Origin: Clostridium ljungdahlii
GTDB taxonomy: Bacteria; Bacillota; Clostridia; Clostridiales; Clostridiaceae
NCBI RefSeq assembly: GCF_001636845.1
Contig: NZ_LITT01000062.1
Coordinates: 1 to 64,000, forward strand
Reading direction: 5' to 3'
DNA: 64,000 nt
This document shows, piece by piece, positions 45,567-64,000 of this stretch (position 1 is its first letter; each line of letters opens with the position of its first letter). The translations under genes were made by a program, and so were the position numbers. Under the pieces are notes generated by a model that saw only the letters and a program-made list of their open reading frames with translations, was not told the origin of the DNA and did no database searches.

Positions 45567-45567
45567 G

Positions 45568-45717: not shown

Positions 45718-46146
45718 ATGAAATTAAACACAAAATATCATGGAGTACTAAACTATGAAAAAGAAGATATAATAATGTTTAAAAAAGGCATTCCCGGTTT
45801 TGAAAATTTGAAGAAATTTATATTGGTTCCTGCAGAGGAAAATAATTTATTTTATATACTTCACTCTATTGAAGATATTAATATTGGAATTGTGGTAGTT
45901 TCACCTTTTAATGTATTAAAAAGCTATGAATTTGATTTAAATGAAATTAAAATATCTGAGCTTAATATAAAAAGCAATAAAGATATTATTGTAGTAAATA
46001 CAGTTAACTTAAGTTCTAAACTAGAGAATATAACAGTTAATTTGAAAGCTCCCATAATAATAAATAAGAATGAAAATATTGGGGAACAATTAATACTAGA
46101 GGTTGATTATCCAATAAAATACCCACTTTTTAAGGGGGAGTTTTAA
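45718..46146 (+). CDS. fliW: Flagellar assembly factor FliW
   Basis: A 142-residue FliW, the flagellin-binding antagonist of CsrA. In B. subtilis free FliW binds CsrA and relieves repression of flagellin translation, whereas cytoplasmic flagellin sequesters FliW. The family pattern is visible: MFKKGIPGFENLKKFILVP, VVSPFNVLKSYEF, VNLKAPIIINKN and the Gln-rich ending. The csrA start codon directly follows its stop codon, so the two are translated together. The start follows AAGGGAG. Confidence 0.94.
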   Translation: MKLNTKYHGVLNYEKEDIIMFKKGIPGFENLKKFILVPAEENNLFYILHSIEDINIGIVVVSPFNVLKSYEFDLNEIKISELNIKSNKDIIVVNTVNLSSKLENITVNLKAPIIINKNENIGEQLILEVDYPIKYPLFKGEF

Positions 46147-46362
46147 TTGTTAGTTATAAGTAGAAAAAAGGGAGAGTCACTGCTTTTAGGAGAAGATATA
46201 GAAATAACTGTTGTAAAAGTAGAAGAGGGAACTGTTAAACTTTCTATATCTGCACCTAGAAATATAAAAATACTTAGAAAAGAACTTTACAAGGAAATAG
46301 AAGAAGAAAATAAAAATGCGGCAGCTTCAGATATAAGCATATTGAAAAAATTGAAAAAATAA
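46147..46362 (+). CDS. csrA: Carbon storage regulator CsrA (FliW-partner type)
   Basis: A 71-residue RNA-binding dimer that blocks translation at GGA-containing sites. The core [15 protein letters not shown] begins the first strand, and R44 in ILRKELY is the RNA-contacting arginine. The helical C-terminal extension [20 protein letters not shown] includes N55, a position reported as needed for FliW binding in B. subtilis CsrA. The start is TTG with no gap to fliW. Its main expected target is the flagellin mRNA; both flagellin leaders here carry suitable sites. Compare the shorter copy at 57920. Confidence 0.94.
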
Positions 46363-46755: not shown

Positions 46756-46785
46756 AGCATTGATATTATTCTAGGGGGGATTTTA

Positions 46786-47088: not shown

Positions 47089-47187
47089 TTAATAGTTAAG
47101 AATTAATAATTAAGAGTTAATAGTTAATAAGGATTTTTCAACGAAAAATCAACTGTAATTATTAATTATACATTATTAATTCTTAAT
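47087..47187. repeat. Fold-back intergenic repeat, copy G (TTAATAGTTAAGAATT arm type)
   Basis: The left arm TTAATAGTTAAGAATTAAT and the right arm ATTATTAATTATACATTATT and on to AATTCTTAA are inverted copies. The centre GGATTTTTC-AACG-AAAAATC (47131-47150) is a short version of the GATTTTTC/GAAAAATC core. It lies directly before the fliS ribosome binding site. Confidence 0.6.
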
Positions 47188-47209
47188 ACAATAAAGGGAG
47201 GTTTATTGT

Positions 47210-47596: not shown

Positions 47597-47634
47597 AATG
47601 ATAATTGTGAATTGAATAAGGGGAGGTAATGAAT

Positions 47635-49434: not shown

Positions 49435-49458
49435 TAGGAAAATTGAAATGGGGAATAA

Positions 49459-49800
49459 ATGATGAAGCTAGATTTAGAAAGAGATATGGAAAATTTAAGG
49501 GACGTCACATGTGAGCTTATTGATAAACTTCAGAAGAATGATTATGATGCGTTAGAAAATCTAATGGATGAGAGGCAAAAATTACTAGATAATTTAGAAA
49601 AACTGCATTGTACAAAAGAGCGGTATCGTGATGCAATTGATCAATTTCAAGTAATTACTTTTCAGCAGAAACTATCAAAAATAATGGCTGAGAAGAAACA
49701 TAAGCTGAGAGAAAAAATTGATGATATATCTAGAAGGAAAAGTTTAACAAAAGGCTATAATAAGCATATAGGTGCTAGTATATTTAGTAAAAAAATTTGA
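49459..49800 (+). CDS. FliT-like flagellar chaperone (tentative)
   Basis: A 113-residue, charged, fully helical protein with coiled-coil patterns (LERDMENLRDVTCELIDKLQ and LENLMDERQKLLDNLEKL). It has no signal peptide or cysteine cluster. Its place after fliS-fliD is that of FliT, the chaperone of FliD, and size and helix content fit. Sequence conservation in FliT is too low for a firm call by eye. Two ATGs are adjacent (49459 and 49462), both behind a GGGGAA site. It ends the operon before flagellin 1. Confidence 0.6.
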   Translation: MMKLDLERDMENLRDVTCELIDKLQKNDYDALENLMDERQKLLDNLEKLHCTKERYRDAIDQFQVITFQQKLSKIMAEKKHKLREKIDDISRRKSLTKGYNKHIGASIFSKKI

Positions 49801-49843
49801 TGATATTATTTATATAAAATAAATAAAAAGTCAAAAAAAGTAG

Positions 49844-49870
49844 TAAAGTAAATAAAAATAGCAACGATAA
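49844..49870 (+). promoter_or_regulatory. Sigma-28 (SigD-type) promoter of flagellin gene 1
   Basis: TAAA (49844-49847), a 15-bp spacer and AACGATAA (49863-49870) match TAAA-N15-GCCGATAA at six of eight -10 positions. The expected start near 49876 puts the CsrA hairpin at the very 5' end of the transcript. Confidence 0.7.
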
Positions 49871-49883
49871 AATAAATAACAAA

Positions 49884-49914
49884 GGGCAAGGATGCCCATT
49901 AAAATTCAAGGAGG
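49884..49914 (+). promoter_or_regulatory. Two CsrA binding sites in the leader of flagellin gene 1
   Basis: GGGC-AAGGAT-GCCC (49884-49897) is a hairpin with GGA in its loop; CAAGGATG fits the CsrA consensus core. The second GGA lies in the ribosome binding site CAAGGAGG (49907-49914). The same two-site layout, hairpin plus ribosome binding site, is known from the B. subtilis hag leader. Binding at both would block translation. Confidence 0.75.
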
Positions 49915-49922
49915 AATTTATT

Positions 49923-51635
49923 ATGATAATTAATCACAACTTACAAGCCAATAATGCTATAAGGAACATGAACATCAATTCAAACAATGCAAGCAAATCA
50001 ATGCAAAAACTTTCATCAGGTCTTAGAATCAACAGTGCAGCAGATGATGCAGCAGGACTAGCTATATCTGAAAAAATGAGAGGCCAGATAAATGGTCTTG
50101 ATCAAGCAGCTTCTAACTCACAAGATGCGATATCAATGGTTCAAACAGCTGAAGGTGCTTTAAATGAGACAACTTCAATCCTTCAAAGAATGAGACAACT
50201 TGCTAATCAGGCAGCAAACGGCACTAATGTTACTGTTGATAGACAATCCATACAGACAGAAATGAATCAATTGACATCAGAAGTTAACAGAATTGGTAAT
50301 ACTACAGAATTCAATACTCAGTCACTTTTAAAAGGTGATGGTTCTGTTAAGGTTGCTGGTTCAGGTTTAACTACTGGAGTTGGCAATTTAGCTGGTGGTG
50401 TAGATTCTACAAAGACATTAGCAACTCAGACAAATACAATTACTACTGCTGCAGTAGCAGGTGATACTTATACTGTTACTCTTAACGGACAGGCACTTAC
50501 AGTTACTTTCGCAGCATCAAATGCTGGTGGACAGGCAGCTCAAGCTGTTTATAATCTAACTGGCACATCTGCAACTGTTAATTTGGCAGGTGTTACTGAT
50601 GCTACTACTGATAGTGCTACTGAGTTAAGATCATCTATTCAAGATATGATTGATAATAACTCAGTTTTGAAAGGAAATTATGTAGTAAGTGGCAATGGTT
50701 CCAATGTTACTATTACAGCAGTAACTGGAGGAACGTTTGATGGTGCAGCAGGAACAATTGGTGCTTCAACTCAGACTGGTACTATTGCAGGAGTAGCTGC
50801 AGCAAACACAGGAACAACTACTACGGGAACAGCAGCAAGTGCTACGATTACAATAGGTGGTACTTATTCAGCTTATATTGGAACTGGTATGACAATTGAT
50901 AATCAACAAATTGAATTCTATGATGGTACTAAAGGTGCTTATACTGGTTCTGCAATTGGTGTTGATTTAGCAGGAACTTCAACAGCAGATGATATTTCTA
51001 AAGCAATAATTGCACAAGCTGGACCAAAGCTTACGGGTGTTACACTTGCTACAGGTGGTGCTGCTGGAAAGGTTACTATTTCAGCTGCAAATCCAGGTGT
51101 TGCAGGAGATCAAATAAAAGTACAGGATGGAAGTGTTCAGCAAAAATTTGTAACTACAATGCAGGTAGGAGCAAATATGGGACAGACATTCCAAATATCT
51201 ATAGCAGATATGAGGTCAAATGCCCTTGGAATTGCTGGTACAGCTGGTGCATCTGTTGCAGGAGTTGCAGGTGCAAAATTTACATCAACAAATGTTGTCA
51301 CAGATGGAACAAGTGCTACATTAAGAGAAGCATCTCTTGATGTATCAAGTACTGATACTGCTACAGCTGCCCTTAAAGTATTAGATAATGCTACAGCTGC
51401 AGTTTCCGCTCAGAGATCAGAGCTTGGTGCTTATCAAAATAGACTTGAACACACTATAGCAAACCTTGGAACATCTTCAGAAAACTTAACATCAGCAGAG
51501 TCAAGAATTAGAGATGTTGATATGGCAAAAGAAATGTCAGCATATTCAAAGAACAATATTTTATCTCAAGCAGCTCAGGCTATGCTTGCTCAAGCTAATC
51601 AACAGCCACAACAGGTTCTTCAGTTATTGAGATAA
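49923..51635 (+). CDS. Flagellin 1
   Basis: A 570-residue filament subunit. The conserved N-terminal D0/D1 segment begins MIINHNLQANNAIRNMNINS, with KLSSGLRINSAADDAAGLAI. The C-terminus ends SAYSKNNILSQAAQAMLAQ and QQVLQLLR. The central domain (about 150-460) is rich in Ala, Gly, Thr and Ser, with many candidate glycosylation sites. It forms a near-twin pair with the flagellin at 58186: ends almost identical, centre patchy. Flanking genes encode a glycosyltransferase and other modification enzymes. It is probably controlled by sigma-28 and by CsrA binding in its leader. Confidence 0.96.
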   Translation: MIINHNLQANNAIRNMNINSNNASKSMQKLSSGLRINSAADDAAGLAISEKMRGQINGLDQAASNSQDAISMVQTAEGALNETTSILQRMRQLANQAANGTNVTVDRQSIQTEMNQLTSEVNRIGNTTEFNTQSLLKGDGSVKVAGSGLTTGVGNLAGGVDSTKTLATQTNTITTAAVAGDTYTVTLNGQALTVTFAASNAGGQAAQAVYNLTGTSATVNLAGVTDATTDSATELRSSIQDMIDNNSVLKGNYVVSGNGSNVTITAVTGGTFDGAAGTIGASTQTGTIAGVAAANTGTTTTGTAASATITIGGTYSAYIGTGMTIDNQQIEFYDGTKGAYTGSAIGVDLAGTSTADDISKAIIAQAGPKLTGVTLATGGAAGKVTISAANPGVAGDQIKVQDGSVQQKFVTTMQVGANMGQTFQISIADMRSNALGIAGTAGASVAGVAGAKFTSTNVVTDGTSATLREASLDVSSTDTATAALKVLDNATAAVSAQRSELGAYQNRLEHTIANLGTSSENLTSAESRIRDVDMAKEMSAYSKNNILSQAAQAMLAQANQQPQQVLQLLR

Positions 51636-51676
51636 ACAGTTAACCTAATTTAGTTACAAGTAAATTAATTACTATT

Positions 51677-51708
51677 AATAAGGGTGGAGTTTGTATTCCA
51701 CTCTTATT
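51677..51708 (+). terminator. Hairpin between flagellin 1 and the glycosyltransferase gene
   Basis: AATAAGGGTGGA pairs with TCCACTCTTATT (one G-U) around GTTTGTAT. There is no T-run after it, so it probably attenuates or stabilises the flagellin mRNA 3' end rather than stopping all transcription. Confidence 0.55.
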
Positions 51709-51793
51709 TAATACAGAATATTAATTTTTTAGAAAGTTAAAGTATTTAATTCTGTAAAAAATTAATATCAAAACTGCAAGAGGGGTTGAAATT

Positions 51794-53680
51794 ATGAAAA
51801 TTACAGCATGTTTAATAACAAAAAATGAAGAAAAAAATATTAAAAGATGTATTGATAGTTTTAAAGAAGTTGTAGACCAAATAATTGTCGTAGATACTGG
51901 CTCCACCGATAATACAATTAGCATAGCAAAAGAGTATGGTGCTGAAATATACAATTATGTTTGGAAGGATGATTTTTCTCAACCCAGGAATTTAGCTCTT
52001 TCTAGAGCAAAAGGCGACTGGATAATATTTTTGGATGCGGATGAGTACTTTTATGGAGACACTAGTAAAAATATACTTAAGATTATTAAAGGTATCGATA
52101 ACAGCAAAAACATAATTGGAATATATTGTCCCCGAATAAATATTGACACTGTAAAAAATATTAAGGTTACGGATTATATGGTGAGAATATTTAGAAATAA
52201 GGAATCTATGAGATACCTGGGCAGGATTCATGAAAATGTATATGATAATGGAAAAAAGATAGATTGCTTTACTGTAGATAAAAAAGATATAACCATTTAT
52301 CATACAGGTTATTCTTCTGAAATTCTTAAAAGTAAATATGAAAGAAATTTATTCTTATTACAAAAAGATGTAGACGAAGGAAAAGAAACAGCCCAAACTT
52401 ATTTTTATTTTGGTGACTGCTATTTTTCACTTGAAAATTATGAACTGGCGATAAAATATATGAAAATGTATATTGATAGTGGTGAAGAAAATGGGGGATA
52501 TAATACAAAACCGTATTATATAACCATAGCTTCAATGATGATGTTGAATTCACCTTATGAGTCTGTAAGAAAGGTAATTGATGAAGCCATAGCAAAAAAA
52601 CCTAGTTATCCTGAGTTCTATAGACTTTGGGCATCTTTAGAACATGTTTATGGAAGTTATGATAAATCATTAGAACTTTATAAAAAAGCATTTGAACTTA
52701 ATGAAAATTACAATGATATAGAACACAATAATTTTGAGGCCAATGTATATAATGCCTATTATAATATGGGAAGGCTTTATGAGCTTGAAAATGATAACAT
52801 CAACGCACTTGAGCATCAGGTTAAGTCGTTACAGCAAAATAAATATTTTGATGGGGCATTTCAATGTTTGTTAGGATTAATAAAAAACGAGAATTATTCT
52901 GATATAATTTTATTTATTAACAGTATTTATGATATTGATAATGAAAAAGATATTGAATTTTTGGTTAACCAAACAGCAAAAGTTAAATTAGGAAAAGTGC
53001 TTTATTATTATGAAAACATAAGGTTAAATAAATTTAAAAAAGAAGATAATAAAATAATGTTTACCTTATACTCAAACGAAAATTATGAAGAAGCGTATAA
53101 ATATTTTTCTAAGTGCTATTTTGATGAGTGGAGTTATACCTGGGTACAGTTTTCAGTGCTGTCTGCACTGTTGAGTAAAGATGTTAAATTAGTAGAAGAA
53201 ATAAAAAATTATGTAAAGCCATCTTTTAAAAGAATCATCGAAGGGTACTTTGAAAATAGAAATGTAAAATTTATTAAAGAAGATAAGGCTGATTATTTAA
53301 AATTGCTGAAAGAAATAGTATTAGTTAAAGGAAATTCAATCGAATTAAAGAAGTTTATTGAATTAAAAAATAATTTTGAGGAAAATGTATCCTCCAGTAT
53401 AGGAAATATATTGTTTGAATGCAAACAGTATATTGAAGCTGTGAATAACTATAATGACTCGCTGAAGGATGCAGGTATATATTACGGAATGGCATGTAAA
53501 TGTATCGGAGTATGTTATTTTAAAATGAAGAATTATGAAACGAGCATGGAATATATGCAAAAGGCTGTAGAAAAAGAATATAAACCTAAAGAAGTAAAAC
53601 AATATTTGATCTGGCTGGAGAAAAAGGTAACTGATCAAAAATTAAAAATAGAAGCAAAAGAATTGCTTAATAATTTTTAG
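51794..53680 (+). CDS. Family 2 glycosyltransferase with TPR-like repeats, copy 1
   Basis: A 628-residue protein with an N-terminal GT-A glycosyltransferase domain: MKITACLITKNEEKNIKRC, VDTGSTDNT (33-41), the RNLALSRAKGDWIIFLDADE segment and D81-A-D83 for metal and nucleotide-sugar binding. The remaining ~400 residues are helical repeats of TPR type (FGDCYFSLENYELAIKYMKM; YKKAFELNENYNDIEHNNFE). Such proteins resemble enzymes that glycosylate flagellin or other surface proteins, with the TPR part holding the acceptor. It lies directly after flagellin and is about 99% identical to the copy at 60057. The sugar is unknown. Confidence 0.88.
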   Translation: MKITACLITKNEEKNIKRCIDSFKEVVDQIIVVDTGSTDNTISIAKEYGAEIYNYVWKDDFSQPRNLALSRAKGDWIIFLDADEYFYGDTSKNILKIIKGIDNSKNIIGIYCPRINIDTVKNIKVTDYMVRIFRNKESMRYLGRIHENVYDNGKKIDCFTVDKKDITIYHTGYSSEILKSKYERNLFLLQKDVDEGKETAQTYFYFGDCYFSLENYELAIKYMKMYIDSGEENGGYNTKPYYITIASMMMLNSPYESVRKVIDEAIAKKPSYPEFYRLWASLEHVYGSYDKSLELYKKAFELNENYNDIEHNNFEANVYNAYYNMGRLYELENDNINALEHQVKSLQQNKYFDGAFQCLLGLIKNENYSDIILFINSIYDIDNEKDIEFLVNQTAKVKLGKVLYYYENIRLNKFKKEDNKIMFTLYSNENYEEAYKYFSKCYFDEWSYTWVQFSVLSALLSKDVKLVEEIKNYVKPSFKRIIEGYFENRNVKFIKEDKADYLKLLKEIVLVKGNSIELKKFIELKNNFEENVSSSIGNILFECKQYIEAVNNYNDSLKDAGIYYGMACKCIGVCYFKMKNYETSMEYMQKAVEKEYKPKEVKQYLIWLEKKVTDQKLKIEAKELLNNF

Positions 53681-53696
53681 AGAGGAAGTAAAAGGC

Positions 53697-55268
53697 ATGG
53701 CAAACTATCTAAAAATAGCAAATATAAGTATAGATAATAGAAGTGCAGTATTTAATAATTTATATGATGATTTAATAGATAAATATTTGCAGGATAACAA
53801 ACTTGATGCAGTACTAGAATGTATATCAATAAATGATTTGGAAAATTTAAATGGTTATGATGCAATTATTATTAAAAATGGAGATATAGATAGATTTAAA
53901 ACTACATTTAATATAAAAAATATAGAAACAGAGGAGACTAAAATAATAGTCTTAAATGATACAAAAAATAACTTTAATAACATGCTTTTAGGTATAAGAA
54001 AATTATATGATCTTCCCATTGTTGAAGCTGCAGATAAAATAATTTCTGTAAATATTCAAAACTTAAAATATGATATTCCTGAAGATAAGTTAGAGTGGGT
54101 GTATGAACAGCTTCAAATAGCACTTCAAATATTGATTAATAATGGATATAAAATAAATGTATTTTCACTTAGCAGCAACGAGGATATACTAATAGATAAC
54201 AAATCATGTAAAGGATTTATATATCAATTTCAAAATGATAATATTAAATATGTTGGAAATATAGAAAGCAGTGAAAAATTTGTTGAACTAATTAATGAGT
54301 CTTTGTTTTTTATAAATTTATCTATGGAGGCCAATATATTATGTACTTCATTTAAGAAAACATTTATTACATTTAAGCTACATGAAGAGTTTGAGGATTT
54401 TCTTAGTTATTTTGAATTAGGGAATATGGCATTTAATGCAGATGAATTTAATGCTGGAAAAATGTTAAAAAAAGTAGAAAAATTAAAGACTTTTCTTGAA
54501 CCAGAAGTTATTGATAATAAAATAGAAAGTATATTTAATAAAAATAAAACATTCTTTTATGATGAATTGGTTAATATTAAACCTAGAAAATTGTTTAAAG
54601 ACAGCAGGTTAGACACAGATGAAAATAAAGTTTATAATGATGGTGGAAAACGAAAAAGGAAAAAACCATTTATTTATAAACTAGATAAAAATAGTAAAAA
54701 TAAATTGGAACTTGGCTGTGGTAAAAATCCTATGCCCAGCTGGATTCATTTGGATTACATGGAATTACCAGGAGCAGATGTGGTGGCAAATCTTGATACA
54801 TGCGATGAGGTGCCGCTTCCTTTTGAGGATAATACTATAGACGAATTTTTTGGCAGTCATGTAATAGAACATATTTCAAAATCATTACCTATGATGGAAG
54901 AACTTCATAGAATTGCAAAACCAGGAGCAAGAGCTTTGTTTAAGTGTCCATATGGTTCTAGTGATGATGCCTTTGAAAATCCTACCCATGTAAGGCAGTA
55001 TTTTTTACATTCTTATGGGTATTTTTCGCAGCCCTATTATTGGAGAGAAGATTATGGATACAAGGGAGATTGGAAAGTAGAAAAAATATATCTTGTCGTA
55101 AGTAAAAAAAGATATGAAGGTAAAACAGTAGATGAAATAATGTATGAAATTAATACTTTTAGAAATGTAGTTATAGAAATGACAGTAGAACTAAGTGCAG
55201 TAAAGCCAATTAGAGAACCTAAAAAGGAACTGCAAACTCCTGACAATATTCAATTTGTATTTGTATAG
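53697..55268 (+). CDS. Two-part protein with C-terminal SAM methyltransferase, copy 1
   Basis: A 523-residue protein. The C-terminal ~190 residues form a class I methyltransferase: LELGCGKNPMPSWIHLDYM (SAM motif and acidic loop), VANLDTCDEVPLPFEDNTID, GSHVIEHISKSLPMMEELHR and AKPGARALFKCPYGSSDDAF. The N-terminal ~330 residues are of unknown type. Their pattern (a KLEWVYEQLQIALQILINNG helix followed by alternating strands, and INLSMEANILCTSF) vaguely recalls the second half of polysaccharide pyruvyl transferases or GT-B folds. The downstream copy at 61959 keeps the methyltransferase but has a diverged N-terminus. It probably modifies the flagellin glycan. Confidence 0.78.
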   Translation: MANYLKIANISIDNRSAVFNNLYDDLIDKYLQDNKLDAVLECISINDLENLNGYDAIIIKNGDIDRFKTTFNIKNIETEETKIIVLNDTKNNFNNMLLGIRKLYDLPIVEAADKIISVNIQNLKYDIPEDKLEWVYEQLQIALQILINNGYKINVFSLSSNEDILIDNKSCKGFIYQFQNDNIKYVGNIESSEKFVELINESLFFINLSMEANILCTSFKKTFITFKLHEEFEDFLSYFELGNMAFNADEFNAGKMLKKVEKLKTFLEPEVIDNKIESIFNKNKTFFYDELVNIKPRKLFKDSRLDTDENKVYNDGGKRKRKKPFIYKLDKNSKNKLELGCGKNPMPSWIHLDYMELPGADVVANLDTCDEVPLPFEDNTIDEFFGSHVIEHISKSLPMMEELHRIAKPGARALFKCPYGSSDDAFENPTHVRQYFLHSYGYFSQPYYWREDYGYKGDWKVEKIYLVVSKKRYEGKTVDEIMYEINTFRNVVIEMTVELSAVKPIREPKKELQTPDNIQFVFV

Positions 55269-55330
55269 AAGATGATTCATCGAGGTATAGAATAATTATA
55301 ATAAATTTTTAACTTATAGAGGTAAATATC

Positions 55331-56473
55331 ATGGCAAAAGATTATGATTTTTATGTAAATGCTCAACCCAGTATTTATAAAAGTGTTGATAGAAAATTGA
55401 AGGTTTATTTTTCAGAACCAGATAGCGGTATAAATAATAATACGGGTATTTTATTACTAATCCCTGGATTTGGTGCAAATTCTAATTCAAACATATATAG
55501 AAAAATGAGACGTGATTTTTCAGATAAATATAATTTGGTAGTTTTGTCTTGTGATTATTTCGGATATGAATTTATGCAAAACATGCCATTTTTTATTGAA
55601 AAAAATATATTGGAAATCAATATAAATGGTGAATTTGTTAATTATAATAGCCCGTTAATTGATGATTTAATGGATGAATTAATGAAATCTCCTATGGAAA
55701 ATCTAATGTTAGGCGGAAGACTAAAAATTTATGAAAAGCCTGAATACTGCTGTGATATGGGATTAATGCAGGCTATTGATAATATTACAGCAGTTCTTTC
55801 AGTTATATCTATTATTTATGATAATGATCTTAAATTTAATACTAAGAAAATATTAATTTATGGTAATTCTCATGGCTCGTATTTATCCTATTTATGTAAT
55901 GCCTTTGCACCGGAGTTGTTTTCACTTATAATTGATACAGCAGCATATACATATCCAAAGTATATAGAAAAAAGACAACCTTGGTTTATAAAATATAATG
56001 ATTCTATATTTAAAGCTAATGATAAATACATTGAGAAAACTATAAAAATACAGTTTGATATTAACTATATTATATCTAAGCTGTTCTGTGATTTAGATAT
56101 TTTAAAACTTGATGTCTTATATAATCAATTCAATAATAAATGTAAAATTATATCTTTTCATGGAACTAATGATGATCTAACGCCTATCAGTGAAAAAAGA
56201 AAGTTTTGTGGTTCAATAGATAATTGTAAGCTGGATGAAATTATTGAAATTGGTGCAAATAAATCTGATAGCTGCATATTTCAAAATGACCATCATGACA
56301 TAGGAGTAAATTTTATTAATTTATTTGATAAGATTATGAATGAATATGGCAGTACGTTCAAAACTTCAGAATATTTGGATTTTAAGAATGAGTATATTTA
56401 TAGTACAATGGAAAACGAATATAAAATAAGTTATAGAGATATTTTGCCAAGATTAATTATTAATTCAATATAG
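55331..56473 (+). CDS. Alpha/beta hydrolase-like protein of the flagellin island (DUF2920-like)
   Basis: A 380-residue soluble protein. It has an oxyanion-type LLIPGFGANSNSNIYRKM, a nucleophile elbow GNSHGS (serine) in KILIYGNSHGSYLSYLCN, and a late NDHHDIGVNF that could supply the histidine. These fit an alpha/beta hydrolase with a helical insertion. I recall similar proteins (DUF2920) near flagellar modification genes in Campylobacter and Clostridium, but their function is unproven. It could trim or transfer an acyl group on the flagellin sugar. It lies between the two duplicated blocks and has no duplicate in the window. Confidence 0.7.
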   Translation: MAKDYDFYVNAQPSIYKSVDRKLKVYFSEPDSGINNNTGILLLIPGFGANSNSNIYRKMRRDFSDKYNLVVLSCDYFGYEFMQNMPFFIEKNILEININGEFVNYNSPLIDDLMDELMKSPMENLMLGGRLKIYEKPEYCCDMGLMQAIDNITAVLSVISIIYDNDLKFNTKKILIYGNSHGSYLSYLCNAFAPELFSLIIDTAAYTYPKYIEKRQPWFIKYNDSIFKANDKYIEKTIKIQFDINYIISKLFCDLDILKLDVLYNQFNNKCKIISFHGTNDDLTPISEKRKFCGSIDNCKLDEIIEIGANKSDSCIFQNDHHDIGVNFINLFDKIMNEYGSTFKTSEYLDFKNEYIYSTMENEYKISYRDILPRLIINSI

Positions 56474-56541
56474 TGGCTGATTTCATTATAAATATATAAG
56501 AAAGTAATTATTAAGATATTTTTTAAAATTTGAGGTGTATT

Positions 56542-57618
56542 ATGGATTTAGAGTTAAAAGATTTTTTTCATTATGGTAAAAAGGAAGAAGAAAATTTGAA
56601 GAAAAATATTAAACTATTAGAAAAGTATCAAAATATTAAAATAAAAAATATAGATTTAAACTTACTTACTCATAAAGTGAAAAAAATATCTGAAAACTTT
56701 GTAACTCCATTTGTTTATAAAGAAGACATTTGGAAACCTTTGACAAAGGAAGATGGCTCAGATATAAATGAATTTGTAAATGAAATTAATTTAGAATATG
56801 TAGATGATGTGATAATTGTTTTTGGTTTTGGTATAGGTTATCATATTGGTGAATTACAAAAAAAATATCCTAATAACAGGATTCTTGTACTTGAATGTGA
56901 TTTTGAAATAATAAAGATTGCTGCCATTTATGGTAATTTAGAAAATGTAATTTGCAGCGACAAAATTTCTATAGGATTATTTAAAGACAGTGAAGAGTTA
57001 AGCAAAATATTAAAATACTATTTTGGAGATCAAAATAGAGTTAGTTTTATAGCTGATTCTTTTGCTAATTACGACCAAATTTATGATAAAGAATTTCAAG
57101 ACTTAGTTATTTTGATTGATGAGCTAAAATCAGACATTGAAAAAAATAGAGAGAAAAGAATTAAGCTATCTGAAGATATTTTAAATAGTAATAGCACGAT
57201 TAATATTATTACTGAAGCAATAAATAATGCTAATTCATCAAACGAATTGGATGTTAACTTTAATATAAAAAGTTTATTGCAGGAAGTTAATCACAAGAGT
57301 GGGATAGTAAAAGAAGGCATAAAGTGTCTTAGTAAGTTATATGATTTTTCAATAGGAATAAAGAATATTAATGTTGAAAAAAGTATAAAAAGATTTAATG
57401 AAATAGAATCAGAAATTCAACTTAGTCCCATGCTTTTAATGATAATGGATATAGCTATGTACAAGTATTTAGATACTTTAAATGAGGATAAACAGGTTAA
57501 AATTAGAGTTGATGATGCTAAAAATAAAATTCAAATAAAAAAAATTATGTATAATTTGAAAATATATAAATACAGGCATGAGTGTATGGAAAAGTTATTA
57601 GCAAGTTTAACATACTAA
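56542..57618 (+). CDS. Maf/DUF115-like motility accessory protein, N-terminal-type domain
   Basis: A 358-residue protein. The segment VIIVFGFGIGYHIGELQKKY, followed by RILVLECDFEIIKIA, is the Rossmann-like signature seen at the start of Maf flagellin-modification proteins. Typical Maf proteins run to about 600 residues with a DUF115 sugar-transferase domain. Here that domain is short or missing, and the C-terminal ~170 residues are helical (SDIEKNREKRIKLSEDILNS). It may be a non-catalytic partner or a reduced Maf. The ATG at 56542 follows GAGGTG; an in-frame TTG at 56530 overlaps the site. A 15-bp hairpin spans the stop codon. Confidence 0.7.
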   Translation: MDLELKDFFHYGKKEEENLKKNIKLLEKYQNIKIKNIDLNLLTHKVKKISENFVTPFVYKEDIWKPLTKEDGSDINEFVNEINLEYVDDVIIVFGFGIGYHIGELQKKYPNNRILVLECDFEIIKIAAIYGNLENVICSDKISIGLFKDSEELSKILKYYFGDQNRVSFIADSFANYDQIYDKEFQDLVILIDELKSDIEKNREKRIKLSEDILNSNSTINIITEAINNANSSNELDVNFNIKSLLQEVNHKSGIVKEGIKCLSKLYDFSIGIKNINVEKSIKRFNEIESEIQLSPMLLMIMDIAMYKYLDTLNEDKQVKIRVDDAKNKIQIKKIMYNLKIYKYRHECMEKLLASLTY

Positions 57619-57644
57619 ATTTCTTCGCTAAGAAATTTAGTATG
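57611..57644 (+). terminator. Perfect 15-bp hairpin over the stop codon of the Maf-like gene
   Basis: CATACTAAATTTCTT-CGCT-AAGAAATTTAGTATG includes the TAA stop. The T-rich DNA after it is not directly adjacent, so it may act as an mRNA 3' end or a weak terminator. The gene-free interval that follows (57645-57919) holds a promoter and the csrA leader. Confidence 0.5.
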
Positions 57645-57774
57645 TAGTAGTTTATATAAAAAAATGAAAATAGATCTATTTTTATTTTTTATATAAAGTT
57701 TTTTAAATTTAAAACGAATAATTAAATAGGTAGAAAACATAGGAAATATAAGAAAAAAATATATGAAATGGATA

Positions 57775-57801
57775 TAAAGTTTTCTATAAAGATACCGAAT
57801 A
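57775..57801 (+). promoter_or_regulatory. Sigma-28-type promoter of the second csrA
   Basis: TAAA (57775-57778), 15 bp, then ACCGAATA (57794-57801) against the consensus GCCGATAA. The CCGA part matches; the last bases are shifted. The predicted start near 57807 gives a leader of about 113 nt. Confidence 0.5.
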
Positions 57802-57816
57802 AATTATATATAAAAG

Positions 57817-57860
57817 AGTCAGGACGACTAGTAAACCTATTATACTCTGCAGGAGGCAGA
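57817..57860 (+). promoter_or_regulatory. Two GGA-loop hairpins in the leader of the second csrA
   Basis: AGTC-AGGAC-GACT (57817-57829) and TCTGC-AGGAG-GCAGA (57846-57860) each expose GGA in a five-base loop, the classic CsrA target form. A third GGA lies in the ribosome binding site GGAGGGA (57907-57913). This suggests autoregulation, or a leader that titrates CsrA. Confidence 0.65.
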
Positions 57861-57919
57861 AGTGAGTAGGCGTATTAGTTGTATTTTTTTGATTATAAAA
57901 ATCCATGGAGGGAAGACAA

Positions 57920-58081
57920 ATGTTAGTATTAGGCAGGAAGCCAGGAGAATATGTGATAATTGGCAATAACATAAAGGTTAAAGTTGTAAAAAGTGGTAAT
58001 GGAGATTTAAGACTTGCAATAGACGCTCCTAAAGATATAGAAATCACAAGAGGTGAAGTTTGGGAGCAGAAGAACAAGTGA
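57920..58081 (+). CDS. csrA: Second, short CsrA lacking the FliW-binding extension
   Basis: A 53-residue CsrA, MLVLGRKPGEYVIIG onward. The RNA-contact residues are kept: L4, R6 and R44 in EITRGEV. It ends EQKNK at residue 53, whereas the fliW-linked CsrA at 46147 has 71 residues with N55 and a helical tail. FliW is known to bind B. subtilis CsrA through the C-terminal region, so this copy should bind RNA but be insensitive to FliW (inference). It starts behind GGAGGGA and lies 104 bp before flagellin 2, probably cotranscribed with it from a sigma-28-type promoter. Being shorter than 60 codons, it is easily missed. Confidence 0.88.
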   Translation: MLVLGRKPGEYVIIGNNIKVKVVKSGNGDLRLAIDAPKDIEITRGEVWEQKNK

Positions 58082-58136
58082 AGAACTATTAATTAATCTT
58101 GTTAGTAAAGCCTTCGGGTTTAACTATAAATAAAAA

Positions 58137-58178
58137 AGTACGCAAGGAAGTGTACTATTAAGCAAAATCAGGGAGGGA
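58137..58178 (+). promoter_or_regulatory. Two CsrA binding sites in the leader of flagellin gene 2
   Basis: AGTACGC-AAGGAA-GTGTACT (58137-58156) is a 7-bp hairpin with GGA in the loop. Its GTAC, CAAGGA and GT elements closely follow the CsrA consensus RUACARGGAUGU. A second GGA lies in the ribosome binding site GGGAGGGA (58171-58178). The layout equals that of flagellin gene 1 although the surrounding DNA is unrelated. Confidence 0.78.
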
Positions 58179-58185
58179 AATTATT

Positions 58186-59898
58186 ATGATAATTAACCAC
58201 AATTTAATGGCAAATAACGCTATAAGAAACATGAACATTAACTCAAACAATGCAAGTAAATCAATGCAAAAACTTTCTTCAGGTCTTAGAATTAACAGTG
58301 CAGCAGATGATGCAGCAGGACTAGCTATATCTGAAAAAATGAGAGGTCAGATAAATGGTCTTGATCAAGCAGCTTCTAACTCACAAGATGCTATATCAAT
58401 GGTTCAAACAGCTGAAGGTGCTTTGAATGAGACAACTTCAATTCTTCAAAGAATGAGACAACTTGCTAACCAATCAGCAAACGGAACTAACGTTACTGTT
58501 GATAGACAGTCTATACAGACAGAAATGAATCAATTGACATCAGAAGTTAATAGAATTGGTAATACTACAGAATTCAATACTCAGTCACTTTTGAAAGGTG
58601 ATGGTTCTGTTAAGGTTGCTGGTTCAGGTTTAACTACTGGAGTTGGTAATTTAGCTGGTGGTGTAGATCCTTCAAAGACTGCAGCAACTCAATCCGCTAC
58701 TATAACAGCAGTAGCAGCAGCAGGAGATAAATATACTGTTACACTTAACGGACAGGCACTTACAGTTACTTTCGCAGCATCAAATGCTGGTGGACAGGCA
58801 GCTCAGGCTATATATAATGTAACAGGTAGTGGAGCTACAGTTAATATTGAAGGAACTCCATCATTAAATGGTGCAGCAGATGGAATAAGAAGAGCAGTTC
58901 AAGATATGATTGATAATAATTCAGCTTTAAAAGGAAACTATACAGTAACAGGTAATGGTGCTAATATTACAATCACGGCGGTTACTGGTGGTACATTTGA
59001 TGGTGCAGCTGGTAGTATAGGAGCATCAGCAGTAAGTGGTACAAGTCTTGCTGGAACAGCTGGAGCAGCAACTGGAACAACTAATGTTGGAACAGCAGCA
59101 ACTGCTACTATTACTATAGGTGGTACTTATTCATCCTATATTGGAACTGGTATGACAATTGACAATCAACAAATTGAATTCTATGATGGAACTAAGGGAG
59201 CTTATACAGGTTCTGCAATTGGTGTTGATATTGCTTCAAGTGCAACAGCTGATGATATTGCTAAAGCAATAATTTCACAGGCTGGACCAAAGCTTACAGG
59301 TGTTACACTTGCTACAGGTGGTGCTGCTGGAAAGGTTACTATTTCAGCTGCAAATCCAGGTGTTGCAGGAGATCAAATGAAAGTACAGGATGGAAGTGTT
59401 CAGCAAAACTTTGTGACTACAATGCAGGTAGGAGCAAATATGGGACAGACATTCCAGATATCTATAGCAGATATGAGGTCAAATGCTCTTGGAATTGCTG
59501 GTATAGCTGGTGCATCTGTTGCAGGAGTTGCAGGTGCAAAATATACAGCAACAAATGTTGTTACAGATGGAACAAGTGCTACATTAAGGGAAGCAGCTCT
59601 TGATGTATCAACAACTGATACTGCTACAGCTGCCCTTAAAGTATTAGATAATGCTACAGCTGCAGTTTCAGCTCAGAGATCAGAGCTTGGTGCTTATCAA
59701 AATAGACTTGAACATACTATAGCAAACCTTGGAACATCTTCAGAAAACTTGACATCAGCAGAGTCAAGAATTAGAGATGTTGATATGGCAAAAGAAATGT
59801 CAGCATATTCAAAGAACAATATTTTATCTCAAGCTGCTCAGGCTATGCTTGCTCAAGCTAACCAACAGCCACAACAGGTTCTTCAGTTATTGAGATAA
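58186..59898 (+). CDS. Flagellin 2
   Basis: A 570-residue flagellin of the same length as flagellin 1. The first ~140 and last ~100 residues are nearly identical to it (one clear change near the start is LMANNA for LQANNA). The central domain differs in patches: 160-230 and 270-310 are diverged, while the segment GTYSSYIGTGMTIDNQQIEF onward is almost the same. No good sigma-28 promoter lies right before it; transcription probably comes through the short csrA. Two GGA sites in its leader predict CsrA control. It is followed by the same glycosyltransferase as flagellin 1. Confidence 0.96.
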   Translation: MIINHNLMANNAIRNMNINSNNASKSMQKLSSGLRINSAADDAAGLAISEKMRGQINGLDQAASNSQDAISMVQTAEGALNETTSILQRMRQLANQSANGTNVTVDRQSIQTEMNQLTSEVNRIGNTTEFNTQSLLKGDGSVKVAGSGLTTGVGNLAGGVDPSKTAATQSATITAVAAAGDKYTVTLNGQALTVTFAASNAGGQAAQAIYNVTGSGATVNIEGTPSLNGAADGIRRAVQDMIDNNSALKGNYTVTGNGANITITAVTGGTFDGAAGSIGASAVSGTSLAGTAGAATGTTNVGTAATATITIGGTYSSYIGTGMTIDNQQIEFYDGTKGAYTGSAIGVDIASSATADDIAKAIISQAGPKLTGVTLATGGAAGKVTISAANPGVAGDQMKVQDGSVQQNFVTTMQVGANMGQTFQISIADMRSNALGIAGIAGASVAGVAGAKYTATNVVTDGTSATLREAALDVSTTDTATAALKVLDNATAAVSAQRSELGAYQNRLEHTIANLGTSSENLTSAESRIRDVDMAKEMSAYSKNNILSQAAQAMLAQANQQPQQVLQLLR

Positions 59899-59939
59899 AC
59901 AGTTAACCTAATTTAGTTACAAGTAAATTAATTACTATT

Positions 59940-59971
59940 AATAAGGGTGGAGTTTGTATTCCACCCTTATT
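59940..59971 (+). terminator. Hairpin between flagellin 2 and the glycosyltransferase gene
   Basis: AATAAGGGTGGA pairs perfectly with TCCACCCTTATT around GTTTGTAT. It is the duplicate of the hairpin at 51677 but without the G-U pair. No T-run follows. Confidence 0.55.
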
Positions 59972-60056
59972 TAATACAGAATATTAATTTTTTAGAAAGT
60001 TAAAGTATTTAATTCTGTAAAAAATTAATATCAAAACTGCAAGAGGGGTTGAAATT

Positions 60057-61943
60057 ATGAAAATTACAGCATGTTTAATAACAAAAAATGAAGAAAAAAA
60101 TATTAAAAGATGTATTGATAGTTTTAAAGAAGTTGTAGACCAAATAATTGTCGTAGATACTGGCTCCACCGATAATACAATTGGCATAGCAAAAGAGTAT
60201 GGTGCTGAAATATACAATTATGTTTGGAAGGATGATTTTTCTCAACCCAGGAATTTAGCTCTTTCTAGAGCAAAAGGCGACTGGATAATATTTTTGGATG
60301 CGGATGAGTACTTTTATGGAGACACTAGTAAAAATATACTTAAGATTATTAAAGGTATCGATAACAGCAAAAACATAATTGGAATATATTGTCCCCGAAT
60401 AAATATTGACACTGTAAAAAATATTAAGGTTACGGATTATATGGTGAGAATATTTAGAAATAAGGAATCTATGAGATACCTGGGCAGGATTCATGAAAAT
60501 GTATATGATAATGGAAAAAAGATAGATTGCTTTACTGTAGATAAAAAAGATATAACCATTTATCATACAGGTTATTCTTCTGAAATTCTTAAAAGTAAAT
60601 ATGAAAGAAATTTATTCTTATTACAAAAAGATGTAGACGAAGGAAAAGAAACAGCCCAAACTTATTTTTATTTTGGTGACTGCTATTTTTCACTTGAAAA
60701 TTATGAACTGGCGATAAAATATATGAAAATGTATATTGATAGTGGTGAAGAAAATGGGGGATATAATACAAAACCGTATTATATAACCATAGCTTCAATG
60801 ATGATGTTGAATTCACCTTATGAGTCTGTAAGAAAGGTAATTGATGAAGCCATAGCAAAAAAACCTAGTTATCCTGAGTTCTATAGACTTTGGGCATCTT
60901 TAGAACATGTTTATGGAAGTTATGATAAATCATTAGAACTTTATAAAAAAGCATTTGAACTTAATGAAAATTACAATGATATAGAACACAATAATTTTGA
61001 GGCCAATGTATATAATGCCTATTATAATATGGGAAGGCTTTATGAGCTTGAAAATGATAACATCAACGCACTTGAGCATCAGGTTAAGTCGTTACAGCAA
61101 AATAAATATTTTGATGGGGCATTTCAATGTTTGTTAGGATTAATAAAAAACGAGAATTATTCTGATATAATTTTATTTATTAACAGTATTTATGATATTG
61201 ATAATGAAAAAGATATTGAATTTTTGGTTAACCAAACAGCAAAAGTTAAATTAGGAAAAGTGCTTTATTATTATGAAAACATAAGGTTAAATAAATTTAA
61301 AAAAGAAGATAATAAAATAATGTTTACCTTATACTCAAACGAAAATTATGAAGAAGCGTATAAATATTTTTCTAAGTGCTATTTTGATGAGTGGAGTTAT
61401 ACCTGGGTACAGTTTTCAGTGCTGTCTGCACTGTTGAGTAAAGATGTTAAATTAGTAGAAGAAATAAAAAATTATGTAAAGCCATCTTTTAAAAGAATCA
61501 TCGAAGGGTACTTTGAAAATAGAAATGTAAAATTTATTAAAGAAGATAAGGCTGATTATTTAAAATTGCTGAAAGAAATAGTATTAGTTAAAGGAAATTC
61601 AATCGAATTAAAGAAGTTTATTGAATTAAAAAATAATTTTGAGGAAAATATATCTTCCAGTATAGGAAATATATTGTTTGAATGCAAACAGTATATTGAA
61701 GCTGTGAATAACTATAATGACTCGCTGAAGGATGCAGGTATATATTACGGAATGGCATGTAAATGTATCGGAGTATGTTATTTTAAAATGAAGAATTATG
61801 AAAAGAGCCTTGAATATATGCAAAAGGCTGTAGAAAAAGAATATAAACCTAAAGAAGTAAAACAATATTTGATCTGGCTGGAGAAAAAAGTAACTGATCA
61901 AATATTAAAAATGAAAGCAAAAGAATTGCTTAATAATTTTTAG
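60057..61943 (+). CDS. Family 2 glycosyltransferase with TPR-like repeats, copy 2
   Basis: A 628-residue protein almost identical to the one at 51794. By eye I find only a handful of amino-acid changes: S43 to G near the N-terminus, then a small cluster near the C-terminus (ENVSSS to ENISSS, YETSMEY to YEKSLEY, KLKIEAKE to ILKMKAKE). The catalytic VDTGSTDNT and DAD motifs are unchanged, so both copies should be active on the same sugar donor. The very high identity compared with the diverged neighbours on both sides points to recent gene conversion. Confidence 0.88.
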   Translation: MKITACLITKNEEKNIKRCIDSFKEVVDQIIVVDTGSTDNTIGIAKEYGAEIYNYVWKDDFSQPRNLALSRAKGDWIIFLDADEYFYGDTSKNILKIIKGIDNSKNIIGIYCPRINIDTVKNIKVTDYMVRIFRNKESMRYLGRIHENVYDNGKKIDCFTVDKKDITIYHTGYSSEILKSKYERNLFLLQKDVDEGKETAQTYFYFGDCYFSLENYELAIKYMKMYIDSGEENGGYNTKPYYITIASMMMLNSPYESVRKVIDEAIAKKPSYPEFYRLWASLEHVYGSYDKSLELYKKAFELNENYNDIEHNNFEANVYNAYYNMGRLYELENDNINALEHQVKSLQQNKYFDGAFQCLLGLIKNENYSDIILFINSIYDIDNEKDIEFLVNQTAKVKLGKVLYYYENIRLNKFKKEDNKIMFTLYSNENYEEAYKYFSKCYFDEWSYTWVQFSVLSALLSKDVKLVEEIKNYVKPSFKRIIEGYFENRNVKFIKEDKADYLKLLKEIVLVKGNSIELKKFIELKNNFEENISSSIGNILFECKQYIEAVNNYNDSLKDAGIYYGMACKCIGVCYFKMKNYEKSLEYMQKAVEKEYKPKEVKQYLIWLEKKVTDQILKMKAKELLNNF

Positions 61944-61958
61944 GGGGAAGTAAAAGAT

Positions 61959-63485
61959 ATGATGAACTATCTAAAAATAGCAAATATAATCAGTAATAGT
62001 GAGAGTATGCTGATTAATGATATAAGTAGACAAATATTAAAAAAATGTATATTAGATTGTAAGTTAAATGCAGTTGTAGAAGATGTAAAAGTATATAATC
62101 TAGATTCAAATTATGATTATGATGCTTACATAATAAAAAAAGAGGATAGTATTAAATACAGTTATCTCATAGATGCTTTGGAAATTGAGGAAAATAGATT
62201 AATTGTATTAGAAGATAGTAAAGAAAATATTCTTTTAAACGTAGGAAAACTTTATAGGTTAGAGAATCAAATGAAAGGGAAAAAAATAGTTGTTGCTAAT
62301 ATTCAAAAGATAAATTATGATATAACAAAGGAAAAATTTGATTGGGTATATGAGCAGCTTGAAATTTCATTGCAGATCCTTCTTAATAAAGGATATAAAA
62401 TAAAAATATTTTCAATAAGTAAAGAAGAAGAATCAATTGAAAACAAAAAGCTTTGTGAAGATTTTGTATATAAATTTCAAAATAAAAATATCCAGTATTA
62501 TAGAGATGTACAATCGGTAGTAAAGTATATTGATGTAATAAGAGATGCTGAAATGTCGATTAATTTATCTATGGATGCTAATATATTATGTGCAGCACTG
62601 GGGAAACCATTTATTACTATTAATTTAGATAGAAGTTATACGAACTTTTGCAAAAAATTTGGATTAAATGACGTTATCTATAATATAGATGAAATAAATG
62701 TTGGTAAAATAACAAATAAAATTTTTAGTTCAAAATCAATGTTTGAATGTCAACAAATAGAAAAATTAATAAATCTGTCCTATGAAAAAAATACTAAAGT
62801 TATAGAAGAAAAATTAAAAGTCATTAAGGTAAAAGAAAAAACTAAAAGTATTAGAAGTATTAGAAATATTTCAAATAATAAAATTTATAAGCTTAATAAA
62901 AATAGTATAAATAAATTAGAACTTGGATGTGGCAAAAATCCTATGCCTGGTTGGATTCATTTGGATTATATGAATTTATCGGGAGTGGATGTGGTAGCAA
63001 ATCTTGATACATGTGATAAAGTGCCTCTTCCTTTTGAAGATAATACTATAGATGAATTTTTTGGCAGTCATGTAATAGAGCATATCTCAAAGCCATTACC
63101 TATGATGGAGGAACTTCATAGAATTGCAAAACCAGGAGCAATAGCTGTGTTTAGATGTCCTTATGGGTCAAGCGATGATGCTTTTGAAAATCCTACACAT
63201 GTGAGGCAGTATTTTTTACATTCTTATGGATATTTTTCTCAGCCATATTATTGGAGAGAAGATTATGGATATAAGGGAGATTGGAAGGTTAATAAGGTAA
63301 CTTTATTCTTAAGTAAGAAACGTTATCAATATAAGTCAAAAGAAGAAATATTTTTTGAAATAAACAGCTATAGAAATGTTGTCCTTGAAATGATGGTAGA
63401 ACTTATAGCTCTTAAGCCTATTAGGGAACAGAAAAAGGAACTTCAAACTCCAGATAATATAGAATTTGTGCTTGTGGATATGTAG
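61959..63485 (+). CDS. Two-part protein with C-terminal SAM methyltransferase, copy 2
   Basis: A 508-residue homologue of the protein at 53697. The C-terminal methyltransferase is strongly conserved (LELGCGKNPMPGWIHLDYM, VPLPFEDNTIDEFFGSHVIE, PTHVRQYFLHSYGYFSQPYY). The N-terminal ~310 residues share the start NYLKIANI, a VYEQLEISLQILLNKGYKI segment and INLSMDANILCAALGKPF, but are otherwise diverged and shorter. It retains a GKPFIT loop where copy 1 has KKTFIT, so copy 2 may preserve more of the ancestral N-terminal activity. Two ATGs at 61959 and 61962 follow AGGGGGAAG. Confidence 0.78.
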   Translation: MMNYLKIANIISNSESMLINDISRQILKKCILDCKLNAVVEDVKVYNLDSNYDYDAYIIKKEDSIKYSYLIDALEIEENRLIVLEDSKENILLNVGKLYRLENQMKGKKIVVANIQKINYDITKEKFDWVYEQLEISLQILLNKGYKIKIFSISKEEESIENKKLCEDFVYKFQNKNIQYYRDVQSVVKYIDVIRDAEMSINLSMDANILCAALGKPFITINLDRSYTNFCKKFGLNDVIYNIDEINVGKITNKIFSSKSMFECQQIEKLINLSYEKNTKVIEEKLKVIKVKEKTKSIRSIRNISNNKIYKLNKNSINKLELGCGKNPMPGWIHLDYMNLSGVDVVANLDTCDKVPLPFEDNTIDEFFGSHVIEHISKPLPMMEELHRIAKPGAIAVFRCPYGSSDDAFENPTHVRQYFLHSYGYFSQPYYWREDYGYKGDWKVNKVTLFLSKKRYQYKSKEEIFFEINSYRNVVLEMMVELIALKPIREQKKELQTPDNIEFVLVDM

Positions 63486-63535
63486 ATAGAGATAATTTCA
63501 AGATTAATCTTTAGGGGGAAACGTTATGAGAAGTA

Positions 63536-64000
63536 TTAAGGAAATTTTTAATGATGCAGTAAAAAAATATATGGATTATCCAAAGGAAGTTAACATTGAA
63601 ACCACAGGAAGATGCAATGCAAAATGTGTATTTTGTCCACATGATTCAATTGAAAGAAAAAACACACAAATGGAAGATGCTCTATTTTTTAAAATCATCA
63701 GTGATTTGAAAGAAATACCAAAGGAATTATTGTATAATATATCACCATTTAAAGTAAATGAACCCTTAATGGATAAAACTTTTTTCGATAAAATGGAAAT
63801 AATCAATAGAGAATTACCTAATGCTTATATAAGATTCTTTTCTAATTTTAATATGGCAACAGATGAACATATTAAAAGGTTATTCAGAATAGAAAATTTA
63901 AGCCAAATATGGATTTCGTTAAATTCAATGGATAACTTAGAATATAAACAATTAATGGGCTTAAATCTTGATAAAACTCTTGAAAATATAGATAAATTAT
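63536..64000 (+). CDS. Radical SAM protein, partial (runs off the window)
   Basis: The visible 155 residues begin MRSIKEIFNDAVKKYMDYPK and contain the radical SAM cluster motif C-x3-C-x2-C in TTGRCNAKCVFCPHDSIE, followed by the usual first half of a TIM barrel (IRFFSNFNMATDEHIKRLF, then IWISLNSMDN). The start follows TAGGGGG. The right end is cut by the window, so accessory clusters (SPASM) cannot be judged. It follows the second modification block and probably takes part in making or transferring the flagellin modification. Confidence 0.85.

Follow-up and report, generated by a model that had tools for sequence, protein, structure and literature searches.

Introduction

Why does a genome with two flagellin genes carry a second, shortened CsrA gene directly in front of one of them? 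In Bacillus subtilis, CsrA is described as blocking flagellin translation until FliW frees the message (PMC6070490, PMC7652899), and the hag leader as having two CsrA sites (PMC6070490). A 2020 review calls it open whether FliW and small RNAs act jointly on CsrA in any species (PMC7652899), and a multi-omics study of Clostridium ljungdahlii names one CsrA and reports no CsrB/C homologues (PMC6203783). There are flgM-csrA clusters near flagellin genes in Eubacterium and Roseburia (PMC3720852), and a Paenibacillus cluster holds flgM, csrA, and flagellin (PMC5072692); the cluster descriptions in the sections of these two papers that deal with them make no mention of a second short CsrA or a terminator.

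We analyzed a 64,000-nucleotide stretch of the C. ljungdahlii genome, referred to below as the window. A sequence-only reading had proposed that the short CsrA encoded there lacks the FliW-binding region and is a FliW-independent brake on translation of the flagellin gene behind it; mixed dimers with the long CsrA and a role in flagellin choice or stoichiometry were also suggested.

Results

csrA2 encodes a CsrA without the FliW-binding tail

The genes that concern us are the following.

45718..46146, plus strand: fliW (Pfam)
46147..46362, plus strand: long, fliW-linked csrA, 71 aa, TTG start, with N55 and a longer tail
49923..51635, plus strand: flagellin 1 (fliC1), 570 aa (Pfam)
57920..58081, plus strand: csrA2, short CsrA of 53 aa without the FliW-binding tail (translation, Pfam, tree, dN/dS)
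58186..59898, plus strand: flagellin 2 (fliC2), 570 aa (Pfam Flagellin_N and Flagellin_C)

The csrA2 frame (57920 to 58081) is complete, starts with ATG, and translates to MLVLGRKPGEYVIIGNNIKVKVVKSGNGDLRLAIDAPKDIEITRGEVWEQKNK, a protein of 53 aa. It matches the Pfam CsrA profile PF02599 at 69.6 bits, and at 71.2 bits in a second search (cut-off, 27). The RNA-contact residues of CsrA, L4, R6, and R44, are all present. Residue 54 and everything beyond it are absent, and the protein ends two residues short of the N55 position of the long, fliW-linked CsrA. Judged by its profile match and RNA-contact residues, csrA2 is confirmed as an intact member of the CsrA/RsmA family. Translation and profile thus bear out the earlier description of a 53-codon CsrA with L4, R6, and R44, and with the protein stopping at residue 53, the reported loss of N55 and of the helical tail found in the fliW-linked CsrA holds as well. 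A Pfam profile search of the 4.36-Mb genome found csrA2 and the long csrA and no third CsrA match. The long csrA lies directly 3' of fliW, and csrA2 is about 11.8 kb from fliW.

Flagellin 2 starts at 58186, 104 nt past the csrA2 stop. Pfam searches of the window confirmed both flagellins, FliW, FliS, FliD, FlaG, and a glycosyltransferase with TPR repeats. The stretch from 58126 to 63475, with flagellin 2 at its head, is a duplicate of the stretch from 49872 to 55264, which holds flagellin 1 (87% identical), and csrA2 and its leader sit just outside it. The tandem duplicate contains the flagellin, the glycosyltransferase-TPR gene, and a methyltransferase-domain gene, and the upstream regions of the two copies differ.

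Short CsrA proteins form an old, flagellin-linked family

A close short CsrA is present in 3 of 13 genomes of the genus, including C. ljungdahlii itself; the orthologues in 2 of the 12 other genomes are 79% and 87% identical to csrA2. At a score of at least 58 bits, a short CsrA was found in 22 of 206 genomes of the family, all 22 of which also have a FliW match. Among named genomes, we found 99 relatives and kept 80, from Clostridium, Desulfosporosinus, Paenibacillus, Bacillus, Halobacillus, Tepidibacter, Sporomusa, Anaerotruncus, Lacrimispora, and others. These 80, the window, and eight further loci make up the 89 short-csrA loci analyzed below. By this survey, short tail-less CsrA genes are widespread among flagellated Bacillota.

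We built a tree from 124 distinct short and 20 distinct long CsrAs plus B. subtilis CsrA, which makes 21 long ones; identical proteins were merged, and the csrA of L065, whose start is unclear, was left out. One branch splits the 124 short from the 21 long CsrAs (97/76; 98% of 200 bootstrap trees), in a tree of 56 columns with a bootstrap that was not quite settled and many unsupported finer forks. The median dN/dS was 0.077 (66 pairs among 12 Clostridium short csrAs, first 48 codons), which on codon evidence places short csrA under purifying selection. Because the short CsrAs form one side of a single branch and are under such selection, they are best described as an old family and not a recent truncation.

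N55 is a key residue for FliW control of CsrA. It is found at that position in all 20 long CsrAs versus 3 of the 124 short ones, and the median number of residues after R44 is 29.5 in the long versus 13 in the short proteins. All 124 short CsrAs keep R44, 117 have R6, and 121 have L, I, or V at position 4. The missing FliW-binding region first noted in csrA2 is therefore a trait of the whole short family. A C-terminal extension is reported to mark the FliW-controlled CsrA (PMC7652899). Judging from the missing tail, FliW probably cannot hold the short CsrA.

The position of csrA2 ahead of a flagellin gene, remarked on earlier for this locus, proved to be conserved across Bacillota. In 78 of 89 loci, the last short csrA is followed within 1.5 kb by a flagellin frame, and in 67 of these the distance is no more than 420 nt. 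The flagellin is the first recognized frame in 76 of the 78, and a fliS-like frame comes first in the other 2. Four of the 11 remaining loci (L082, L103, L106, and L113) have a flagellin match starting within 250 nt. Tandem short csrA pairs occur in 36 of 90 clusters. Wherever a long csrA is in range, fliW precedes it; L070 has fliW without a long csrA.

The loci also vary in several respects. The flagellin frame behind the short csrA encodes 901 to 1476 aa in L085, L086, L088, L091, L115, and L116, versus 570 aa in the window. Stops are reported inside the second csrA copies of G070 and G107. In Clostridium ragsdalei P11, a deletion-like junction (L045, reverse strand, about 17.0 to 18.0 kb; L070:318-662) has taken out the whole long csrA together with the end of fliW on one side and the start of flaG on the other, and the short csrA is the sole CsrA match of that genome; this may be a natural experiment or an assembly fault.

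A conserved terminator with CsrA-type sites precedes short csrA

The csrA2 leader contains the following features.

57775..57802, plus strand: sigma-28 (sigma-D) type promoter, TAAAGTTT ... CGAATAA (by eye)
57813..57893, plus strand: CT element, a conserved intrinsic terminator with CsrA-type sites, in the csrA2 leader (model R1, covariation)
57817..57829, plus strand: rival 5' hairpin AGUC-AGGAC-GACU, with GGA1 (57822 to 57824) in the loop (pattern, covariation)
57847..57859, plus strand: apical hairpin CUGC-AGGAG-GCAG, with GGA2 (57852 to 57854) in the loop (folding, terminator scan)
57877..57890, plus strand: base of the terminator 3' arm (AGUUGU, 57877 to 57882) and U tract (57884 to 57890) (sequence, folding)
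57907..57912, plus strand: csrA2 Shine-Dalgarno GGAGGG within a weak 3-bp GGA hairpin, a possible autoregulatory site (sequence)

When the intergenic regions were folded, a strong hairpin followed by a U tract appeared ahead of short csrA, of its flagellin, or of both. This CT element is about 80 nt long and has one GGA in its apical loop and another at its 5' base. By sequence and folding, it has the stable stem and U tract of an intrinsic terminator, with a median stability of -34.6 kcal/mol in the free fold.

A search that required two GGAs returned 138 candidates in 73 loci. We kept 124 in 69 loci after dropping 14 on the grounds of spacing, stem length (three loci being exempted), and five named rows; 16 of the 89 loci had no candidate before this curation and 20 had none after it. 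The spacing between GGA1 and GGA2 is 28 to 32 nt in 113 of the 138 candidates. Because this search itself demands GGA, we also ran a GGA-blind terminator scan. Of the single-hairpin terminators that it found, 109 of 123 in the neighborhood of short csrA had both GGAs, versus 8 of 113 elsewhere in the same loci.

We then aligned 72 elements, namely the window copy and 71 of 84 non-redundant elements, the 13 weakest having been left out by eye. Double compensatory changes occur in 13 of the 17 stem pairs. The three GGA columns have no double changes and stand beside pairs that have 36, 25, 22, and 30, although GGA was required when the sequences were selected and the two columns that follow (G and A) have just 0 and 2 as well.

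A covariance model, R1, matches the window element at 64.1 bits (E, 8e-10), the sole match in its own genome at E 0.05. In 1.68 Mb of short-csrA loci R1 gave 153 matches, a sensitivity that is partly by construction, because most of these loci supplied the model. For the 150 that were aligned, the distance to a short csrA is at most 500 bp in 143 and 512 to 639 bp in four. Of the remaining three, one stands before fliD (L087), one before another flagellin (L089), and one before a 459-aa frame that lies behind a glycosyltransferase-like frame (L049). The minus strand accounts for 16 of the 150, and some of these 16 are shadows of elements on the plus strand. R1 had no match between a long csrA and a separate flagellin following it. 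At E of at most 0.001, it matched 26 of 204 family genomes, including all 22 with a short-type CsrA; three further positive genomes (G139, G143, and G095) have a divergent short CsrA. We rejected the match in G064 (E, 9.6e-4) as a CT element, since that genome has no CsrA match and the hit resembles an ordinary terminator.

Among 299 genomes of the phylum, with filters that lose weak matches, R1 at E 0.001 matched C. ljungdahlii and G296 alone. The G296 match (36.2 bits; E, 7.9e-4) lies in a stretch that did not contribute to R1. Read by eye, this stretch has a promoter resembling the sigma-28 type, followed by the element, then by a short CsrA (MLVIGRKPGEYVMIG...), and then by a flagellin-like frame. 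G296, although a single case, is the cleanest independent test of the link between element, csrA, and flagellin. The existence of the CT element and its link to short csrA and flagellin are well supported.

Rfam families do not account for the element in the stretches that were searched. Rfam 15 gave no family at gathering score in the window from 44000 to 64000. At E up to 5, the search of L084, L110, and L072 yielded no fitting family for the CT element; it returned a SAM riboswitch elsewhere in L110 and three matches below the gathering score, one of which, to the plastid psbA 3' UTR (E, 0.11), falls on the L072 element.

The promoter at 57775 to 57802 was called by eye from the sigma-28 consensus, and transcription from it would start at about 57809 to 57812. 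A crude scored scan placed sigma-28-like sites ahead of the first short csrA in 33 of 87 loci, versus 10 to 13% in controls; in the window, it ranked a similar site at 57693 highest.

Where a locus has two csrA genes, it also has several copies of the element. In L049 and L070, the gap between csrA2 and flagellin is about 950 nt long and includes a second element. The 104-nt gap in the window contains no second element, so one element would govern both csrA2 and flagellin 2.

Some elements stand in other settings. In L083 and L104 (Desulfosporosinus), short csrA and flagellin are separated by a fliS-like frame, and an extra element precedes the flagellin. L049 and L073 have a frame of 118 to 123 aa between element and flagellin; that of L049 matches Pfam 23S_rRNA_IVP at 107 bits. 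Frames that look similar but are shorter occur in L070, L078 to L080, and L089. G006, a genome of the genus, has a second, short CsrA and three CT-element matches. An element match in L181:2231-2319 (G006:C1:1089231-1089319) precedes a 459-aa frame about 7 kb downstream of csrA2, and this frame stands behind a glycosyltransferase-like frame. L066, L067, and L184 encode a divergent short CsrA beside flagellin, in which RDG replaces RGE after I/L43; the L066 terminators near it keep the GGA at the base and have none in the apical loop.

A predicted rival 5' hairpin overlaps the terminator base

The 3' half of the rival hairpin doubles as the 5' base of the terminator. In the window, the GACU after GGA1 can pair either with the preceding AGUC to form the small hairpin or with the 3' arm to form the terminator. 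The hairpin pattern, which was chosen after the window had been seen, has one match there and none in 100 shuffles.

A rival hairpin of 3 bp or more can form in 111 of the 124 elements, and the other 13 lack one of that length. Its third pair (C-G, A-U, or G-C) is Watson-Crick in 80 of 114 cases versus a shuffled mean of 45 and maximum of 62. When kinship was handled, solely by merging identical combinations, 15 of 34 distinct combinations paired, a count that was reached by 17 of 5,000 shuffles. Pair 4 shows no significant covariation, nor does pair 2, in which there is hardly any variation, and the choice of register determined pair 1.

When the rival hairpin was forced in the folding, the terminator stem, which otherwise reaches into the U tract, ended a median of 6 nt ahead of it. 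The gap between stem and U tract was then at least 5 nt in 67 of 111 elements, versus 0 of 111 in the free fold, and stayed below 5 nt in 44. This withdrawal of the stem from the U tract favors antitermination by CsrA. However, the free terminator is more stable than the forced state by a median of 13.4 kcal/mol, so CsrA binding would have to be both tight and fast.

Flagellin leaders carry GGA hairpins

The two flagellin leaders in the window have these sites.

49884..49897, plus strand: flagellin-1 leader hairpin GGGC-AAGGAU-GCCC, 4 bp, a translational CsrA-type site without a CT element
58137..58156, plus strand: flagellin-2 leader hairpin AGUACGC-AAGGAA-GUGUACU, 7 bp, GGA in the loop, a probable CsrA site
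58171..58177, plus strand: flagellin 2 Shine-Dalgarno GGGAGGG, a possible second CsrA site

In both leaders, a GGA hairpin is followed by a Shine-Dalgarno that itself contains GGA, and R1 has no match at the flagellin-1 leader. Among the 78 flagellin leaders behind short csrA, 58 present GGA in a loop on a stem of 5 bp or more, versus 2.4 expected from shuffles. This frequency makes it plausible that the short CsrA represses flagellin translation. The sequence-only reading, which proposed such a translational brake, stands as far as these hairpins and the kept RNA-contact residues go; it had overlooked the terminator element. With that element in view, a brake on translation alone is no longer a sufficient account, and the terminator with CsrA-type sites at 57813 to 57893 makes transcription, besides translation, a likely point of control.

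Discussion

The new part of this work is a conserved terminator element with CsrA-type sites that accompanies the short CsrA; how it acts is a prediction. The CT element is very probably a CsrA-bound regulatory RNA of the csrA2-flagellin operon. In the mechanism that we favor, csrA2 would encode a dedicated paralogue whose target is the RNA of the flagellin operon to which csrA2 belongs. This RNA would start at a sigma-28 promoter, and its first 80 nt or so are the CT element. Unbound, the element would fold into a strong intrinsic terminator, and transcription would halt before csrA2. A CsrA dimer would instead hold two GGAs about 30 nt from each other, GGA1 in the 5' hairpin and GGA2 in the apical loop. 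With its 5' base locked in the small hairpin, the terminator stem would end short of the U tract, and polymerase would continue into csrA2 and flagellin 2. The same CsrA would next hold the GGA hairpin and Shine-Dalgarno of the flagellin message, and of the csrA2 message too. CsrA would thereby license transcription of flagellin 2 and damp its translation, and FliW would not relieve the short form.

We judge it somewhat better than an even chance that a FliW-blind CsrA paralogue controls its own flagellin operon in this way, through a terminator/anti-terminator switch together with translation. The direction is a closer call: that CsrA causes antitermination, and not the reverse or mere sequestration, has at best slightly better than even odds. 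It counts against the mechanism that antitermination and translational repression on one message work in opposite directions.

One alternative dispenses with a switch. The terminated sigma-28 leader of about 80 nt, with its two CsrA hairpins, might soak up CsrA as CsrB does, be it the long form, the short form, or both. We consider this unlikely, and equally so its corollary that flagellin translation would be relieved when the flagellar late genes are on. The terminated RNA would indeed carry two GGA-loop hairpins, the terminator is very stable, two-csrA loci hold several copies, and E. coli McaS, with about two CsrA sites, is reported to bind CsrA (PMC4347634). Yet a sponge needs no rival hairpin that covaries with the terminator base, and 50 of the 90 elements with csrA next end 24 to 45 nt before its start codon, as attenuators do.

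The opposite direction also has a low probability in our estimate. CsrA might promote termination or merely block translation, with GGA1 simply a part of a strong terminator base; a dimer that bridges the apical loop and the downstream Shine-Dalgarno would then bring about negative autoregulation, which is improbable to a similar degree. GGA2 remains free in the terminator loop, the Shine-Dalgarnos of csrA2 and flagellin contain GGA, and the first G of GGA1 can pair with a U (44) or a C (27) in the 3' arm. Against this, both Gs of GGA1 are unpaired in the free fold of the window element, a GGA close to the base is found in just 25 of the 113 terminators elsewhere in these loci, and the rival hairpin is left unexplained.

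It is still less likely that the short CsrA is solely a FliW-independent brake on flagellin translation, or that it poisons the long CsrA through mixed dimers. The missing FliW tail and the leader hairpins fit such a brake. It leaves the conserved terminator element unexplained, however, and a leader hairpin of this type is also found at flagellin 1, which lacks a short csrA. Finally, the short length of csrA2 might suggest a decaying fragment or a phage-borne CsrA without a role, but we find this highly improbable in view of the low dN/dS, the conserved context, and the old clade, and because the protein matches none of 50,697 phage records and the locus DNA none of 72,556 plasmid records.

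The proposed antitermination recalls several known systems. With the B. subtilis CsrA-FliW-Hag system, the window shares CsrA, FliW, flagellin, and the two-site leader arrangement; compared with that system as described, it adds a tail-less second CsrA, linked to flagellin, behind a terminator with CsrA-type sites. At E. coli pgaA, CsrA exposes a Rho site and promotes Rho-dependent termination (Figueroa-Bossi 2014, as cited in PMC4347634). There, too, CsrA alters RNA structure to control transcription elongation, whereas the CT element is an intrinsic terminator with GGA at its base, and read-through is the predicted outcome. The antiterminators of the Bgl/Sac family act at RAT elements, where a small protein-held hairpin overlaps and excludes an intrinsic terminator (PMC4347634). 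A protein-held hairpin overlapping an intrinsic terminator is also what we predict in the CT element, but with another protein family, recognition of a GGA loop, and a flagellin operon as the target. Like CsrB, CsrC, and RsmZ, the element is a GGA-hairpin RNA ended by a terminator; unlike them, it has two sites and stands as a csrA/flagellin leader, and no Rfam family was matched in the searched stretches. Legionella CsrR is, by the title of a paper cited in PMC7652899, a CsrA paralogue and CsrA target. It resembles csrA2 as a paralogue under CsrA control and differs by phylum. We know of no such terminator element for CsrR. In the open-licence literature, we found neither a short flagellin-linked second CsrA nor CsrA acting at an intrinsic terminator in print.

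We tentatively suggest, at somewhat less than even odds, a new class of cis-acting RNA in flagellated Bacillota, in which CsrA antiterminates, a FliW-blind paralogue switches on its own operon and flagellin, and the terminated leaders double as sponges. If the proposed mechanism is true, the module shows a mode of CsrA action that we did not find in print in the open-licence literature, and it would offer a small protein-controlled terminator for acetogen engineering. It would also suggest how genomes with two flagellin genes could treat their flagellins differently. One small protein family would then control flagellin at both transcription elongation and translation, alongside FliW.
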